Assembly (NCBI RefSeq): GCF_003991225.1
Contig: NZ_JTFC01000033.1
Location: forward strand, 62,001 to 126,000
DNA: 64,000 bases
Direction of reading: 5' to 3'
Source: Candidatus Kurthia intestinigallinarum
GTDB lineage: Bacteria > Bacillota > Bacilli > Bacillales_A > Planococcaceae
How positions within the stretch are numbered: position 1 is the first letter of the stretch; each line of letters opens with the position of its first letter. A model generated the notes under the pieces. That model made no database searches. It was not told the DNA's origin and worked only from the letters and a program-made list of their open reading frames with translations. Position numbers and translations under genes: made by a program. Shown one piece after another: positions 55,769 through 64,000 of this stretch.

Positions 55769-55772
55769 TTTA

Positions 55773-55808
55773 TTAGAACTCATACGATATTGTATGAGTT
55801 CTTTTTTT
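55773..55808 (+). terminator. Terminator after smpB
   Basis: AGAACTCATAC pairs with GTATGAGTTCT around a 6-base loop, followed by a T-run. The next 230 bases (to 56042) are AT-rich with no gene I can support. Confidence 0.85.
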
Positions 55809-56247
55809 GTTTTTAAATGAAAAGACTTAAAAATTATATAGGTTATTGTATTTATATTTAGGAATAAATGATTCTTTTATTATTTTAAATTTAATAAATA
55901 ACATGTAATTGTCATTTTGCCTATTTTAAGTAATAAGTTTTATATCTTTTTGATACACTTCTGTAAAAAATCAACCGTATACTACGATTACTCAGTGCGA
56001 GAAATCATGAGTAAATTAAAATTTGTTAGGGGATTATACATAATGAAAAAAGCAATCGTCGCTGCGACAGCTGTAGCGTTAACATTCAGTGCTGCAACAT
56101 CAGCAAATGCAAAAGAAGTAAAACAACCAACGAAAAAAGTAGTAAAAGTAAAATCAAAAGCCGGTAAATCAATCGTTAAAAAAACAACAGCTGTATCATC
56201 AGATGCGAAAAAAGTGAAAAAAGCTGCAAAAGATTATTTTAAAGTAG

Positions 56248-56383
56248 TTGAACTACCCCCACTTAGCCGTTCTTACGAATGTGCTTGAAGTGGGGGATTC
56301 CTACGAACAGTGCTTGCTTGTTCCAACAGCTCGAACAGCGGCTTCACTTCTTGAGTAGGCGAGCCCCGTAGTTCCTACGGTTG
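56248..56383 (-). ncRNA. Predicted omega (reRNA) 3' region of the tnpB element
   Basis: The 136 bases between the tnpB stop and the right end hold the RE hairpin and correspond to where TnpB guide RNAs end in studied elements. The guide would be read from the flank beginning at 56247 on the minus strand (CTACTTTAAAATAATC). The 5' limit, which normally lies within tnpB, cannot be placed by eye. Confidence 0.5.
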
Positions 56384-57520
56384 TTAGATTAACGTAGTGA
56401 GCCCTTCGGCTAAAATATTCCGACTTGCGTTAAGGTCCCGGTCTAATACTGTGCCGCAAGATGGGCAAACCCACTCGCGAATATCGAGGGACTTCTTGCC
56501 GTCTCGATGCCCACAGACATGACAAAGTTGGCTTGATGGATAGAAGCGTGAAATCTTTACAATTTTTCGGCCATACCACTTCGCCTTATACATCAGTTTT
56601 TGCACAAAAGAAGTCCAAGAAACGTCACTAATGGCTTTTGCTAGTTTATAATTCTTTAGTAATCCTTTTGTATTCAAGTCTTCTAGGCAGATGATGTCAT
56701 ACTGGCGAATGAGTTCCGTTGATAACTTATTCAAAAAATCTTCCCGCTGAAACGCGACACGCTCACGTAAGCGCGCGACTTTACGACGTTGCTTTTGGTA
56801 GTTCATACAGTCACGCAAATCGCGTTTTTCTTTTTTTGCTTGTTCGTAGCGACGTGATAACTTGCGTTGTTCCCGCTTTAGTTTCTGTTCCATCTTCGCC
56901 GTAAAGCGTTGGTTATCCACTTTACGTCCATCAGACAGCATCGCAAAATCGGTGATGCCTAAATCAATCCCAATCGTCTTATTGGTTTTCGGTAACGGCT
57001 TAAAATCAGGCACTTCACATGTAATCGATACGTAAAAATGGCCACTTGCATGATATTTGATCGTTGCGCGCATCATCCGACCTTCCACTACACAAGTTTG
57101 TTTGAACTTCACAAGCCCAAGCTTCGGCAGTTTGATTCGTTTGCCGACAATCGCGATATTGTTATTTGTATTTTTGGTGGTATAGCTTTGAACAGGATTT
57201 TTTTTGCTTTTGAAACGAGGGTAGTTGTTTTGCTTCTTAAAAAATCGATTAAAGGCATCGATTAAACATTCATAAGAGGCTTGTAATGCCACACTATCTA
57301 CATTGCGCAGCCAAGCCGTTTCATCTTGTTTCTTCATCTTCGTGAGGACTTTAGACATCAAGCGACGATTTAAGCTTTTGCCATCTTCCTTATAAGAAGT
57401 GTTCCAAAGTGCAAGAAAATGGTTATAGACAAAACGACAATGACCATGCGTTTGATGGATGCGTGCTTGTTGGTCCTTATTTGGATATAATCTAAATTTG
57501 TAGGCTTTATTTTGTGACAT
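56384..57520 (-). CDS. tnpB: RNA-guided nuclease TnpB of an IS200/IS605-type element
   Basis: 378 residues. N-terminal helix-turn-helix/OrfB domain (Y-K-F-R-L-Y-P-N-K-D-Q), then a split RuvC nuclease: Asp186 in I-G-I-D-L-G-I-T, Glu280 in I-C-L-E-D-L-N and Asp362 in L-D-R-D-L-N-A-S-R-N, with a Zn-finger (Cys333, Cys336, Cys352, Cys355) between them. All catalytic and metal residues are intact, so it may be active. The frame is open to 57637, but GAGGTGA precedes ATG 57520 and the family N-terminus starts there. TnpB proteins cut DNA next to a TAM using an omega RNA from the element's right end, favouring retention of the element. Confidence 0.93.
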   Translation of the reverse strand: MSQNKAYKFRLYPNKDQQARIHQTHGHCRFVYNHFLALWNTSYKEDGKSLNRRLMSKVLTKMKKQDETAWLRNVDSVALQASYECLIDAFNRFFKKQNNYPRFKSKKNPVQSYTTKNTNNNIAIVGKRIKLPKLGLVKFKQTCVVEGRMMRATIKYHASGHFYVSITCEVPDFKPLPKTNKTIGIDLGITDFAMLSDGRKVDNQRFTAKMEQKLKREQRKLSRRYEQAKKEKRDLRDCMNYQKQRRKVARLRERVAFQREDFLNKLSTELIRQYDIICLEDLNTKGLLKNYKLAKAISDVSWTSFVQKLMYKAKWYGRKIVKISRFYPSSQLCHVCGHRDGKKSLDIREWVCPSCGTVLDRDLNASRNILAEGLTTLI

Positions 57521-58093
57521 GACATTCACCTCTTCCGTTCGTTCGTTTTTAATCGTTTCGATGGAAATACCGCCAGTAGAGATCCAACAGTCGTTTTTAG
57601 AGCAAAACAGTTTTAGTCTTTTCATACCCTTTTTCAATCAATAGCAAGCCCTATTAACGAGTATTTTAACGAGCATCTCTTGAAACGTACTATTCGTCAA
57701 AAGCATAGCATGCATCGCCCACCTACTCACTTCGCTCCTTGAGGTGGGCGTCTTCTGCTACAGACATGATAAAAAAGGTGCTTTAACAAAAGAAGAATAC
57801 ACAGCATTACTAGCACAAATCACACAGCTAGAAGCGCAAATCAAGGCGGATATGGAAAAACTACAAGAAGTATTGAAAGATGTAAAAAAACAGCTTGATA
57901 AAAAGCATGACAAGCCGAAAAAAGCGGATTGTGATGATAAAGACGATCATGACGACGATGATGATGACAAAGACGACGATTATGATGATGACCAAGATGA
58001 CGACCAAGACGACGATCATGATGACGATCATGATGATGACCAAGATGACGATGATAACGACAACGACTAATTAATTTTATAAAGAAACTGTGA

Positions 58094-58126
58094 AACACCT
58101 CCAAAATTTTTGGAGGTGTTTTTTGT
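58094..58126 (+). terminator. Terminator after the Asp-rich protein gene
   Basis: AACACCTCCAAAA (58094-58106) pairs with TTTTTGGAGGTGTT almost without loop, followed by a T-run. Confidence 0.88.
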
Positions 58127-58292
58127 TGAGGAAACAACTTAATAATGAAATTAGTTGATTTGAAAAATATGCTATATACTTGATTTGAATACATAGAAAA
58201 TATTTAAATGCAAACGTTAAATATGGATAAAAATAACTAAAAAATAAATAAATGTGATAGAATATGTTCATAAAATAAAAAGAGGTGTAGGT

Positions 58293-59168
58293 ATGTTTAA
58301 TAGCAAATTTAAAAAAGAAGCTATTTCAGGATATAAGGAAGTAGTTGAGGAATATGAACAATCACGTGAAGAAATTTTAAAGGGGTCAGAAAACTTATAT
58401 AACAGTAGAATATTATTAAAAGATTATATAGAATTAACATTAAATTTAGTGAATCGTTTAAAAAACAAACCACTTGAAATGTCATTAAAGGTTGAAGAAG
58501 CACAGCTTAAATTTGATAAATTCAAAAATACTATTCTAGAGTTAGAAAAAGAAATTGATACAGAATTGAAAAAGAATGTATTAGGTGCTGGCGCTGGTGT
58601 TGCTGCTGGTGGAGCAGTTGCTGCTTTTGGTCCATCTGCAGCAATGGCGATTGCTACAACATTTGGTACAGCATCGACAGGAACAGCAATCTCAGCATTA
58701 TCAGGTGCAGCTGCAACAAATGCAGCATTAGCCTGGCTAGGTGGTGGAGCTCTTGTAGCTGGAGGTGGTGGAACCGCAGCAGGCTCGACATTACTAGCGC
58801 TTGCTGGACCAATTGGTTGGGCTATTGGTGGTACGGCAGTTGCAACTGCGGGAATACTGACAAGTAGTAAAAATAAAAAAGTCGGAAAAGAAGCTTTAGA
58901 TAAAACTGCGGAGCTACATAAAGCAATTCGTGTTGCAGATGCAACAAAAATTGAAATTAAGTATACAACAGATGAGGTAAATCAATCAGCTTATTTAATA
59001 AAGACAGCTGTACAAACTATGGACTCAAATTTAGAACAATATAGTTTTAATTTCCATAAAATTGTTGAAGCCAATGCCAAACACATTCTTAATGATTTAG
59101 GGACATTGGTAAATAATATGAATTCAGCTATTCAATTATTAACTCGACCTATTGGAGAACAAGCGTAA
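58293..59168 (+). CDS. Coiled-coil protein with Gly/Ala-rich hydrophobic core, gene A of a two-gene unit
   Basis: 291 residues in three parts: residues 1-95 are charged helices (E-E-Y-E-Q-S-R-E-E-I-L-K; L-E-L-E-K-E-I-D-T-E-L-K), residues 96-190 a continuous Gly/Ala-rich hydrophobic region with glycine-zipper-like stretches (G-A-G-A-G-V-A-A-G-G; W-L-G-G-G-A-L-V-A-G-G-G-G; A-G-P-I-G-W-A-I-G-G), and residues 198-291 amphipathic helices. Helix-hairpin-helix layouts of this kind occur in alpha-pore-forming proteins, but I cannot assign a family. There is no signal peptide. The frame opens at 58254; AGAGGTG precedes ATG 58293. Gene B starts 16 bases downstream, so the two are surely co-expressed. 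ATA and AGA codons are more common here than in the core genes, suggesting acquisition. Confidence 0.78.
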   Translation: MFNSKFKKEAISGYKEVVEEYEQSREEILKGSENLYNSRILLKDYIELTLNLVNRLKNKPLEMSLKVEEAQLKFDKFKNTILELEKEIDTELKKNVLGAGAGVAAGGAVAAFGPSAAMAIATTFGTASTGTAISALSGAAATNAALAWLGGGALVAGGGGTAAGSTLLALAGPIGWAIGGTAVATAGILTSSKNKKVGKEALDKTAELHKAIRVADATKIEIKYTTDEVNQSAYLIKTAVQTMDSNLEQYSFNFHKIVEANAKHILNDLGTLVNNMNSAIQLLTRPIGEQA

Positions 59169-59184
59169 AGATAGGAGAATGACA

Positions 59185-60780
59185 ATGACGACGTTAACGA
59201 CCTATTTAGAGGAGCATTATTTAACTGTTTTAGAGGAATTACCTGAGAAAGAATTAGAAATTGCACAGGATTTATGGAAGCAGTATCAAGAGATTATTAC
59301 AACCTCTCTTTACCAGCAATTTGGGTTAAGCCATTTTATGCAATTTAAAGATGGTGGCAATGTAACGACATTGCACAATGCTAAAAATGGTGTTTTTGCA
59401 AAAGGTACAACAGAAAAACAATTTAATCGAAAATATGACGCGCAAACAAGAAAAGAAATTTATGAAAAAGATTTTGCTAAAAATCGTAAAAAAGCATTCC
59501 AAGAAAATAAAGAAATTCGTGATGGTTATACGGGAAAAGTGCTTAATAAAGATGGACGTACACAAAGAGACCATATTGTTTCGGCTGCAGAAATCCATAA
59601 TAATCCTGAAGCAAGATTATATATGACAGACAAAGAGCGTGGGCAGATGGCTGTTGATGAAAAAAACTTAACATGGACAGATGGAAGCTTAAATCAATCC
59701 AAGGGTAAGCATGATTTAAAAGAATGGATGGAATCAAGATCAAGCAAACACCCAGAGTTGAAAAATAAGGATCGTTTTGAAATTGATGAAAAAATGGCAT
59801 CTGAAAAATACGATGGTGCAACAGGACTTGTAAAAACAACAGTCAAAGATGCTAAAAAAGCATACTATAAAAAAGAGTTAACGAGTACAAGCTTGAAACA
59901 AGGTAAGCAAATGGCGATGCGCCAAGCAATAGGAATTTTTTTAGCGGATTTACAAATAGCTTTCTCTGAGGAGTTAGGGGCGTATATTCGTGATTTTCGT
60001 CAGTATGAAACAGTTAAAGAGAAAATCAATGCTTTTAAGAAACATATTCAAGCTGTGCAAGCACGAGTTTTGAATATGCAGTCTGTCAAAAAGGTATTTG
60101 TTGGTGCTTCTGAGGGGTTTGCTGGAGGCGTTATTAGCAATTTATTGACGGTATTTATTAATACTTTTTTAACAACTTCAAAGCGAATTGTACGTATTAT
60201 AACAGAAGGAACGACAGCGTTAATTCAAGCAATTCGTTTATTTGTTTTTAGACCAGCTGACATGACGAAAGAACAAGCCATTTTTGAAGGTTCTAAGTTA
60301 ATTGTTGCGGCTGTTATAACTGCAGTAGGTGCAATCGTTACAGAATCATTTATCACATATCTAAAGACAGTTCCAGTATTCATGCCATTTGCGAGCATAA
60401 TAGGTGGCATTTTAGGTGGTATTCTAACAGGTGTATTATCGGTAACAGTTATTTATAGTATGGATAATTTTTCAGATATCCTAAAGCAAGTAAAAATGAA
60501 AATGTTAGAAACAGCTTATTTTACAGTGGTTTCTATTGATGAATTAAAAATAAAGTATGATACGACAATTCAAGAAATGGATAGTGTTTATCAGGATATC
60601 TTAACTTCTATTTATAGTGAATATGAACAGCTGCGCATTTTGACAGAAAAAGCTTATGATACGACAGTTTCTACCACAGAGCGCTTTCATCATTCACAAA
60701 ATCTTTCCGAAAACATAGGCGTGAAAGAGAAGGATATTTTACGAACTGAACAAGATATTTTGGATTTCTTTAATAATTAA
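59185..60780 (+). CDS. HNH-nuclease-like protein with C-terminal membrane segments, gene B of a two-gene unit
   Basis: 531 residues. Residues 112-185 resemble a Cys-free HNH/ββα-metal nuclease: Y-T-G-K-V-L-N-K-D-G, then D129-H130 in Q-R-D-H-I-V-S-A, N161 in E-K-N-L-T-W, and N170 with K173-G-K in L-N-Q-S-K-G-K-H. The N-terminal 110 residues are helical and charged. Residues about 245-300 are helical; hydrophobic, probably membrane-spanning helices lie near 311-331, 370-392 and 399-425. The last 100 residues are helical and soluble. The frame opens at 59152, but AGGAG at 59173-59177 fits ATG 59185. An HNH domain joined to membrane helices and paired with gene A suggests a toxin or phage-defence effector, which is inference. 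No known system was recognised. Confidence 0.75.
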   Translation: MTTLTTYLEEHYLTVLEELPEKELEIAQDLWKQYQEIITTSLYQQFGLSHFMQFKDGGNVTTLHNAKNGVFAKGTTEKQFNRKYDAQTRKEIYEKDFAKNRKKAFQENKEIRDGYTGKVLNKDGRTQRDHIVSAAEIHNNPEARLYMTDKERGQMAVDEKNLTWTDGSLNQSKGKHDLKEWMESRSSKHPELKNKDRFEIDEKMASEKYDGATGLVKTTVKDAKKAYYKKELTSTSLKQGKQMAMRQAIGIFLADLQIAFSEELGAYIRDFRQYETVKEKINAFKKHIQAVQARVLNMQSVKKVFVGASEGFAGGVISNLLTVFINTFLTTSKRIVRIITEGTTALIQAIRLFVFRPADMTKEQAIFEGSKLIVAAVITAVGAIVTESFITYLKTVPVFMPFASIIGGILGGILTGVLSVTVIYSMDNFSDILKQVKMKMLETAYFTVVSIDELKIKYDTTIQEMDSVYQDILTSIYSEYEQLRILTEKAYDTTVSTTERFHHSQNLSENIGVKEKDILRTEQDILDFFNN

Positions 60781-60811
60781 AGTGTCATTGCTAGAGTTAC
60801 ATGCCTTTTAG

Positions 60812-60840
60812 TTGCGACGTCTACAGTATTGCGCTATAAT
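60812..60840 (+). promoter_or_regulatory. Promoter of ssrA
   Basis: TTGCGA (60812-60817) and TATAAT (60835-60840) with a 17-base spacer. The mature tmRNA start lies about 115 bases downstream, so a 5' leader must be removed by RNase P. Confidence 0.8.
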
Positions 60841-60954
60841 AGTACTAGATTTAAGCCAGTCTCGTTTATCGCCACCGCGCGATTTCCGAACTTACCCAAT
60901 TCAGGCAGCTAGTACGAGCTCATGTGGCTCCATGCTCTTTGTCATAGTGAATAG

Positions 60955-61307
60955 GGGGACGTTACGGATTCGACAGGGATGTCTGGGCTTAAGTCGCGTG
61001 TCGGAGGCCTCGGCTTCGTTACCAACGGAAGTTATATAATAACTGGCAAAACAAACAATCAATTAGCTGCAGCCTAGTTCTGCAACTGCCTCACCGCTCT
61101 ATCGCCCATGTAGTAGTGACTGAGGCCCAACTTTAGTGGGATACGCTTACAGGTGCAACCTGAGTCTGTAAGAAGAGATTAGTAGGTTAGCGCTCAAGAC
61201 GCCTGTCTGTCGGCATAATGCAGTGCGAAACGTAAGTAGATAGACTACACACGTAGTGGCTTAAGTACTGGAGTTTCTGGACGCGGGTTCGACTCCCGCC
61301 GTCTCCA
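60955..61307 (+). ncRNA. ssrA: tmRNA (ssrA)
   Basis: About 353 nt. The 5' acceptor strand GGGGACG pairs with CGTCTCC at the 3' end (one G-U pair), with discriminator A61307. The conserved 5' sequence continues G-T-T-A-C-G-G-A-T-T-C-G-A-C, and the 3' T-arm is GCGGGTTCGACTCCCGC. The tag reading frame encodes G-K-T-N-N-Q-L-A-A-A and stops at TAG, so stalled proteins would receive (A)GKTNNQLAAA, close to tags of other Bacillales. The bases after the discriminator are TAT, so CCA is not encoded. An integrase remnant directly downstream points to the 3' end as an attachment site. Confidence 0.96.
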
Positions 61308-61342
61308 TATATTTATTTCCATATACACCTTATGGAAGCTGA

Positions 61343-61373
61343 AACCCTTGATATACAAGGGTTTTTTATTTTG
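61343..61373 (+). terminator. Terminator of ssrA
   Basis: AACCCTTG (61343-61350) pairs with CAAGGGTT (61356-61363), followed by a T-run. Confidence 0.85.
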
Positions 61374-61437: not shown

Positions 61438-62787
61438 TCAAAATTCAGTATTAGTAATTAAGTAATCAACAAAACAATCAGCTGTTTTTGTTTGAGCCTG
61501 CTCAGTAACGTGAGCATAAATCTTCATTGTAATCTCAATGTCTAAGTGGCCCAATCGCTCCATTACCTCACGCGGAGGAACACCAGCCTCTAATAGAAGA
61601 GTACAATGCGTATGACGTAGTCCGTGAGTTGATATTTCTTTTAGACTATATTCTTTTTGAACCTTTTTTATCCAACGGTTTTAATAAGTTGGATTAAAGT
61701 AGTCATTATTCTTGTTATGAAAGAGAAGCTGCTTGCTATCTGAAAGTAGCTGTCTTTTTAATAACCGCTTTTGTTCCTCTTTCCAGGCTGCTAAAGTAGC
61801 TAGCGTTGCTTGATCTAAATAAACATTACGAGACTTACCATTCTTATGTTCTTTAATATATAGCTTATTTGTAGGGCTGTAAGAAAGTGCCTTCGTGATT
61901 TTAATTAATCCTTTTTCAAAATCGATATCTTACCATTTCAATGCAAATGCTTCTCCTTAGCGTATACCGCTATACGCTAAGGTATGAAGGAATGTATAAA
62001 TCATTGTACTTGTACTCGACTTAGCTGCTTCAATGAATTCGTTTAATTCACTCACAGTATAAAAATTTTCTTCAAATAATTCGGTTTCTACCTCGCCATT
62101 AATTTTTTTAGCAGGTTTTGGTCGATCTATCAACTTCATCGGATTTTTTTGAATGTAATCACGTTTCAATGCAAATTCAAAAATTAAAGATGTATAGTTA
62201 ATAACATCCTTAAATTTCTTTAGTTTTTTCGGATATTTATTAATAAATTGCTGACACATTTCCACGGTTATTTGATCAATTAAATATTTTCCGAGTGCCG
62301 GAAGTATATGGTTTTTAAATATACCTACAGTTTTTCCGAGTGTGCTAGCTTGTACAGTTGTTTCGTATTGGACTAGCCAATCAGTATATATTTCAACAAA
62401 GGTTTTAGATTTAACAACTGGAACCTTTAGTAAAGAGGAAATTAGCTCTCCATTTGCAAGCTCGAACTGAAGTTTTTTAAGCTCATCAGCTGCTTCTTTA
62501 TTGATTTTTAGCCGATAATTACGACCAAGGTAAGGCAACTTTTCCCCAGATAAAAACCTGATTTTCTCATCATATGATTGAATTTCTTCAAAGTCAGCTA
62601 GCTGCTGTAAAATCCACGGTGCCTTCTTGCACATAACAGCCTCAATTTCGGCTGTTTCCACATTAGCTGGTGCAATTACCTTCACACCTGTTTCGGATAC
62701 TTGAATTGCTAATGTTTTGCGTCTATTACTGAATTCTAACGTATAAGAAATGACAGTATTTCCGAACTCGATTTGATGTATTGTCAT
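61438..62787 (-). pseudogene. Tyrosine integrase pseudogene with fused YgjP/DUF45-like 5' segment
   Basis: One frame runs from about 62787 to TGA at 61438-61440, interrupted by three TAA codons (61957-61959, 61930-61932, 61681-61683). Residues 1-120 resemble a YgjP/DUF45 metallohydrolase start (N-R-R-K-T-L-A-I-Q-V, W-I-L-Q-Q-L, G-E-K-L-P-Y-L-G-R-N-Y-R-L), but the later HExxH part is missing. From about residue 127 it is a phage-type integrase: core-binding domain (T-F-V-E-I-Y-T-D-W-L; F-K-N-H-I-L-P-A-L-G-K), then the catalytic domain with Arg (A-Y-S-G-I-R), H-G-L-R-H, L-G-H and Tyr (M-K-I-Y-A-H-V). It reads toward the ssrA 3' end. The stops replace residues usually Lys or similar, so no frameshift is needed. 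The start is uncertain: AGGAGG lies almost against the ATG at 62787, and the frame reaches 62826. Confidence 0.85.
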
Positions 62788-62880
62788 TCCTCCTGAAATA
62801 GCGATATTTTTTTTTAATATTAACACTAATTTAAAATATTAAATATGCATAAGTTTCTATTAAGATTGTCGAACTATCTA

Positions 62881-62942: not shown

Positions 62943-64000
62943 ATGGCGAAAGTTAATGTGTATAAAATTGATTGGAAAAATCATAGAGCATTTGAAGAAA
63001 GTTTAGATGGGAAATTAGATTTAATTGCTCAAAATAATGAAATAGATGGATTTTACTTTAAATATTATGAGTTCGTACCTAACAATGAGAATACCAAATC
63101 TGTAGGGTGGAAGTGGATATTAAGAGAATTTAATAGAGAAGAAATTAAAATTAATAATCAACCTAGAGCGATATTAATTATCGAGTTTGATGATGAAATG
63201 TTTGCTATAGCATTTGGTAGTTCGTATTTTTATATAGATAGATATGCAGATAAGGATTTTCCTTTTGACATTGCTAAGCGTGTTAAGTGTACTGAAATTA
63301 AAACAACTACTGTAGTTTCACCGAATGTTAGGAGAAATAAAAGTATTAATTCATTTGTAAATTATTCAAATCTTGAATTTGATAGCGGTGAGTCTTTTGC
63401 AAAGTTAAAAGCAAAAGTAGAGATTGGAAAATTAAAAGGGGATATTAGTATTGGTGAAACTTTTGAATTTGGTAATTCAATCAAAGTAGATATTAAGAGA
63501 CCTGATTTAGAGACCGTTAGTAAGTTGTTAGAGCTTTTTAAAGAAATTTTGAATTTAGAAGCTATATATCCTATACCATTATTTAATAAAGTTACGGATA
63601 TACAACTAATTGACGAGCTTGAAAGAAATTTAAAAGAAAATGGTGAAAATAATAAAGAAAGAATAGGGATTTCAGAAGTAGATATTATTGGTGTAAATGA
63701 AATCTTTAATAATCAAGATGCTACATATTTGTTGATGTTAGATGATGGGAATGAACAACTAGAAGAAATAACTTATTCAGAATTAGAAAAAATAGCTGAA
63801 CAAAAAAGGTTCAAGTTAAGTGATAAATTGCTTGAATTGAAAATCCAGGTTATTAAAGAAGACGGTACAACTTATACTGAAAGAGTAAGGAAATTGATTG
63901 ATTATATCGATGATGAAAAAAGGTGTGTTTTAAACAAAGGGATTTGGTATCACTTCAACGATGATTATCAAAAATATTTATCAGCTTCATTATCTGAAAT
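62943..64000 (+). CDS. TIGR04141/DUF6119-type sporadically distributed protein, 5' part
   Basis: Open from ATG 62943 to the window end, about 352 residues visible, truncated by the edge. It begins A-K-V-N-V-Y-K-I-D. Features I associate with the TIGR04141/DUF6119 family include the mid-protein S-F-A-K-L-K-A-K-V-E and, near residue 330, C-V-L-N-K-G-I-W-Y-H-F-N-D-D-Y (family pattern C-x-L-x-x-G-x-W-Y). Family members occur patchily, often in defence islands and on mobile elements; biochemical function is not known to me. Codon use is AT-rich (AGA for Arg, ATA for Ile), unlike the core genes here, and an integrase remnant lies next to it, so transfer is likely. GGTGAT before the ATG is a weak ribosome site. 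Confidence 0.72.
   Translation, partial: MAKVNVYKIDWKNHRAFEESLDGKLDLIAQNNEIDGFYFKYYEFVPNNENTKSVGWKWILREFNREEIKINNQPRAILIIEFDDEMFAIAFGSSYFYIDRYADKDFPFDIAKRVKCTEIKTTTVVSPNVRRNKSINSFVNYSNLEFDSGESFAKLKAKVEIGKLKGDISIGETFEFGNSIKVDIKRPDLETVSKLLELFKEILNLEAIYPIPLFNKVTDIQLIDELERNLKENGENNKERIGISEVDIIGVNEIFNNQDATYLLMLDDGNEQLEEITYSELEKIAEQKRFKLSDKLLELKIQVIKEDGTTYTERVRKLIDYIDDEKRCVLNKGIWYHFNDDYQKYLSASLSE

Follow-up and report, generated by a model that had tools for sequence, protein, structure and literature searches.

A DUF6119 gene carried by a decayed ssrA island belongs to a family found repeatedly inside or beside restriction-modification operons

Few effectors that watch over restriction enzymes are known, and PrrC is the textbook case. 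The prrC gene is described as embedded in a type IC restriction-modification (R-M) operon (PMC3874165), and its product as a latent tRNase that is released once the R-M enzyme has been neutralised (PMC3874165, PMC2610378). The link of PrrC is to type IC systems, and its anticodon nuclease has an Arg-Glu-His triad; its relative RloC is mostly found on its own, and an action in trans has been proposed for it (PMC2610378). Other families also occupy such operons. DarTG2 sits in the slot between hsdS and hsdR, described as a possible hot spot at which defence systems recombine (PMC12255303), and a different type I R-M cluster contains TgvAB (PMC11411939).

The gene considered here lies at the end of a 64,000-nucleotide stretch of Candidatus Kurthia intestinigallinarum DNA, referred to as the window (G000:C177:62001-126000, G000 being the window genome). 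It encodes a member of DUF6119 (PF19614)/TIGR04141, a family without an assigned function. Like the PrrC/EcoprrI anticodon nuclease, relatives of the protein are encoded inside type I R-M operons, in their case between hsdS and hsdR. The type IC tie of PrrC has a counterpart as well, since the HsdR beside the nearest relative of the window gene carries an EcoR124_C domain. Unlike PrrC, the DUF6119 protein has no ABC-ATPase match and is of a different size, and no R-M operon surrounds the window copy, the island being devoid of hsd genes, whereas the copies at four other loci (L063, L068, L119 and L122) are embedded. The window copy resembles RloC in being of an R-M-linked kind that can stand alone, but RloC has a Rad50-like ATPase with a zinc hook, for which DUF6119 gives no match. 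DarTG2, a toxin-antitoxin system, and TgvAB, a GmrSD type IV system, share with the DUF6119 relatives a position inside an hsd operon, but belong to unrelated families. In the literature searched, which does not cover the Payne 2024 preprint on embedded defences (cited in PMC12255303), DUF6119 is named in one paper, on wheat, and TIGR04141 in none, and no paper relevant to the family or linking it with restriction-modification was found.

The window gene is carried by an island at the 3' end of ssrA. The initial annotation placed an integrase pseudogene at a tmRNA site and expected an island to continue beyond the window. The contig extends past the window to base 128901, so that the remainder of the island can be read. 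The tmRNA gene called by ARAGORN is also recognised by Rfam RF00023 (187 bits, match 60955-61310), and attL lies at its 3' end. This end, CCCGCCGTCTCCATA, recurs as a 15-nt direct repeat with one change (14/15 identical), providing the attR that the initial annotation had sought. In a relative (G021), the sequence to the right of ssrA matches that to the right of attR with 93% identity across 90 bp; there the island is absent and the site is empty. The empty site indicates that the island is complete, with a size of 5,045 bp. The island does continue as expected, for 2.3 kb past the window, and with a total of 5 kb it is short. Its next genes are not core genes, which disposes of a downstream stretch made up entirely of such genes.

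Table 1. Features of the ssrA island and its borders. Position p of L003 equals window position 60000+p.
Feature	Coordinates	Strand	Basis
tmRNA gene ssrA	60955..61307	+	ARAGORN; 3' end is the integration site
attL core	61295..61309 (L003:1295-1309)	+	direct repeat
Terminator-like hairpin after ssrA, island-supplied	61341..61365 (L003:1341-1365)	+	consensus scan
Tyrosine integrase pseudogene	61438..62826	-	Phage_int_SAM_3, 57 bits; PHROG 1 integrase
DUF6119/TIGR04141 gene	62943..64000 (first 352 codons); ends at L003:4565	+	ORF call, HMMs
GIY-YIG-type protein, 179 aa	L003:4591-5130	+	matches of relatives
PLD-like protein, 353 aa	L003:5147-6208	+	PLDc_2, motif
attR	L003:6340-6354 (extended coordinates 66340-66354), beyond the window		direct repeat

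A repeat of the ssrA 3' end, an integrase and an empty site in a relative together mark the locus as an ssrA island. The integrase is a single reading frame broken by three in-frame TAA codons (61957-61959, 61930-61932 and 61681-61683), as its description as a pseudogene implied, and the element is therefore decayed while its cargo is intact. A 5-kb integrative element entered the ssrA 3' end, which it restored, and its integrase was lost to nonsense mutations. The hairpin that now follows ssrA was supplied by the island. A longer hairpin of 20 pairs, just after attR (L003:6379-6421), belongs to the stretch common with the empty site of G021 and now lies 3' of the cargo. As an object, the island is of an ordinary kind, an ssrA island with defence-like cargo. 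The N-terminal part of the integrase (61957-62826) matches a YgjP-like model at 52 bits, and the protein reads as a tyrosine recombinase bearing a YgjP-type domain. The SprT/YgjP protein that closes several DUF6119-containing hsd operons matches the same N-terminal part at 40 bits.

The DUF6119 frame (62943-63998) is open up to the window end and is intact over its full length of 540 codons. The 540-aa protein passes both curated cut-offs, with 84.0 bits against PF19614 (cut-off 27; residues 47-470 in one stretch) and 51.5 bits against TIGR04141 (cut-off 35), which settles the family named in the initial annotation; the in-window part alone gives 60.9 and 44.1 bits. The foreign composition noted there is equally clear. 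The GC content of the gene is 26%, whereas the window has 38.6%, and AGA makes up 0.60 of its Arg codons and ATA 0.35 of its Ile codons (0.02 each in rnr). All three cargo genes are at 26-29% GC and overuse AGA and ATA. A Pfam scan of the full protein returned DUF6119 only. In PADLOC-DB 2.0.0, the window protein had no match at E<=1, and seven of seven other DUF6119 proteins had none at E<=0.01. The window protein forms a subgroup with those of L012, L016 and L032 (41-48% identity), and the Pfam core is distant (L014, 19%). Its nearest relative in the tree is L016 (48% identity, SH-aLRT 96), where 23 nt separate the DUF6119 gene and an EcoR124-type hsdR.

The family is rare. Among 261 genomes of the taxonomic family, 6 have a PF19614 match above the cut-off and 8 have one at E 0.001; in the phylum sample, where G000 and G012 are counted again, 9 of 398 genomes have one. 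The family also occurs on plasmids of Pseudomonadota, Actinomycetota and Enterococcus (32 records); the window protein and those of L037, L015 and L016, used as queries, gave no plasmid match. The neighbourhoods of 39 DUF6119 loci were compared, of which 16, the window among them, come from genomes, contigs and a single phage-clone record of Bacillota and 23 from plasmids. Nine plasmid matches (H18, H20, H21, H23, H29, H31, H38, H40 and H41), several of them apparently near-copies, and the Staphylococcus phage records H2 and H3 were left out. The weak PF19614 matches L010 and L011, which score 19-20 bits and so stay under the cut-off, fall in other proteins and were excluded from the family; their surroundings served as controls L040 and L041. 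The open frames of all loci were searched with reference R-M proteins. With flanks of unequal length, some cut by contig ends, an R-M match was present at 18/39 DUF6119 loci and at 0/11 loci of a small control set, nine of which have PLD or GIY-YIG relatives and two of which are unrelated.

The family thus lies repeatedly inside or beside R-M operons, and at best between hsdS and hsdR with overlapping frames. Two or more of hsdM, hsdS and hsdR lie within the flanks of 13/39 loci, and annotation adds a fourteenth (L123). The four embedded loci share the order hsdM-hsdS-DUF6119-hsdR-SprT, with hsdM in pieces at L068. At each of them, the DUF6119 gene shares 1-8 nt with hsdS at its start and 4 nt (ATGA) with the beginning of hsdR at its stop. 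Pfam confirmed a type III R-M pair adjoining the DUF6119 gene at L015 and a McrBC component adjoining it at L017. These positions suggest that the family is a so far undescribed partner of R-M systems. Together with the lack of PADLOC-DB matches, they also suggest that the family, rather than the island, is the interesting part of the locus.

The tie to R-M systems is loose, and a stand-alone defence gene, with its own sensor and effector and brought near R-M genes merely by accumulation in defence islands, is a serious contender that we consider somewhat doubtful. No R-M match was found at 21/39 loci, and the type I label, mapped on a tree with 33 members, requires 10 changes; shuffled labels need as few in 257 of 500 cases, so that the label is unclustered. 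The DUF6119 gene therefore appears to enter and leave R-M operons. The search with reference R-M proteins found no R-M gene in the island of the window, and elsewhere the neighbours of the family include an AbiH gene (L070) and a NACHT gene (L066). Shedu and Mrr-type proteins are likewise among them: at L035 (8062-11788) a distant member is followed directly by an SduA_C (Shedu) protein (41.5 bits) and an Mrr_cat protein (25.3 bits). Part of the R-M enrichment could come from a general tendency to cluster in defence islands, and the hsdS-hsdR gap is itself the possible hot spot of recombination described above (PMC12255303). However, the genes that overlap both hsdS and hsdR at the four embedded loci look co-translated rather than just neighbouring.

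The conserved residues of the family point to a catalytic part. An alignment of 23 members, in which the 22 others are 11-48% identical to the window protein, has only W335, E404, E432, D435, K446 and Q460 invariant in 23/23. The last five lie in the final third of the protein. PD-(D/E)XK enzymes have ordered acidic residues, a (D/E)xK element and a helix Gln, and the DUF6119 order E, ExxD, K, Q resembles this arrangement. The acid two places before the Lys is absent in 23/23, the position being occupied by A, T, H, F, C or N, and the PD-(D/E)XK pattern is thus incomplete; a migrated acid in DUF6119 is possible. AlphaFold, run on four and on two sequences (window, L012 and L013 only), gave models with pLDDT 48 and 47. 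Searched with VIA-align, these poor models had no match with Z >=8. The best rows, at Z 4-6.5, mixed CdiA-CT, the Avs4 N-terminus, EndoMS and FANCM-FAAP24, chains that we take to be PD-(D/E)XK, with STAS, Rossmann and decarboxylase folds. Comparison of the 23 C-terminal parts with Mrr, the HsdR N-terminus, PLD and HsdM by hhalign gave a probability below 1% for every pair; this comparison has little power, since Mrr and HsdR themselves reached only 9% and the Mrr set contained truncated fragments. From the order of the residues we infer that DUF6119 is probably a nuclease; structure prediction and hhalign add no support to this. Two further matches were seen with the C-terminal parts. TolC rows, from an hmmsearch of the PDB with the C-terminal profile, were judged spurious, and SMEK_N was matched by 1/23 parts at E 0.019, a domain matched in 0/199 genomes.

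The same residues bear on another role for the family. If DUF6119 regulated or assisted R-M enzymes as a subunit, serving restriction control or self-protection and not acting as an effector, the embedded position and the translational coupling with hsdR would fit. Many DUF6119 loci lack a detected R-M gene, however, and the invariant charged residues look catalytic, which makes a helper subunit improbable.

The best explanation of the whole is a decayed ssrA island with defence cargo, in which DUF6119 is an R-M-coupled effector with a C-terminal catalytic part; we advance it tentatively, as a reading that falls somewhat short of an even chance. The R-M complex would either hold the DUF6119 protein in an inactive state or recruit it. 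A phage that blocked or evaded restriction would free the effector, as in the case of PrrC. The catalytic part, most simply a nuclease, would be the last third, where the invariant E, E, D, K and Q lie. The window copy may act alone, or in trans with a type I system of the same genome. A complete type I R-M operon is indeed present on another contig (C226, L084:7860-14098), but its subunits are only 22-38% identical to the reference HsdM/HsdR of DUF6119-linked systems, and because of this distance a partnership in trans is speculative. The C226 operon is followed by a GmrSD_N protein (120.6 bits; L084:7860-16092), another neighbourhood of R-M and type IV genes.

An R-M-coupled effector that is also able to travel alone, in the manner of RloC, would be the simplest common account of the embedded and the solitary copies. 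A wider proposal, possible but on balance unlikely, is that DUF6119/TIGR04141 proteins are undescribed R-M-coupled effectors of Bacillota, Pseudomonadota and Actinomycetota with the signature E...ExxD...K...Q, which may be embedded in type I operons, lie beside type III or McrBC genes, or occur alone, as here, as a back-up against phages that defeat restriction. If this is true, the database label 'sporadically distributed' gives way to a testable second line of defence, formed by a widespread unnamed family that shares its kind of operon with prrC and has invariant charged residues. The window provides a clean, bounded, R-M-free natural copy to compare with the embedded ones.

The other cargo genes are less informative about the role of DUF6119. 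All three genes lie on one strand, with gaps of 25 nt between DUF6119 and GIY-YIG and of 16 nt between GIY-YIG and PLD, and they are most likely phage-defence genes. The GIY-YIG-type protein is assigned through its relatives and not by its own sequence: GIY_YIG_2 is matched by two of three alignment members, which share 40% identity across the aligned region, with a best E of 2.2e-4. The PLD-like protein falls just below the PLDc_2 cut-off (24.4 bits against 27, E 2.8e-5) and has one HxK...GSxN motif, read by eye. The initial annotation had hoped for partner genes that reveal the role of DUF6119. Such neighbours are present, but neither type recurs beside DUF6119 in 27 other loci (L014 and L062 have different GIY-YIG proteins), and the functional clue therefore comes from R-M operons elsewhere and not from the island. 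That the three genes form one multi-gene system, as their shared strand, short gaps and common low GC and codon use might indicate, is very improbable in view of this lack of recurrence and of the examined GIY-YIG and PLD relatives, which occur without DUF6119 in 9/9 loci. The viral contigs scanned for relatives of the three proteins contained none. At one locus (L058:6158-9439), a relative of the GIY-YIG gene stands alone beside a thyA-like gene recognised by eye; L058 also has stretches of repeated DNA with frames reading 'FQSILSIQRET', probably a CRISPR array.

The surroundings of ssrA show further insertions. Between smpB and ssrA, the window contains a second insertion of about 5 kb (55769-60954); in G021, smpB lies about 130 nt from ssrA (L131). 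This insertion has a TnpB-like gene recognised by eye (56384-57637) and a gene pair (58254-59168 and 59152-60780) that matches the PADLOC candidates PDC-M09A and PDC-M40B. On the other side, the contig ends 0.5 kb after attR within a fragment that by eye resembles an IS21-type IstB gene (L003:6716-6901). Genus-wide, ssrA is an integration hot spot. In G019, an integrase lies beside an ssrA 3' end with phage-like genes adjoining (L129:4119-5247), and in G022 an isolated copy of the ssrA end adjoins unrelated cargo (L128:11151).
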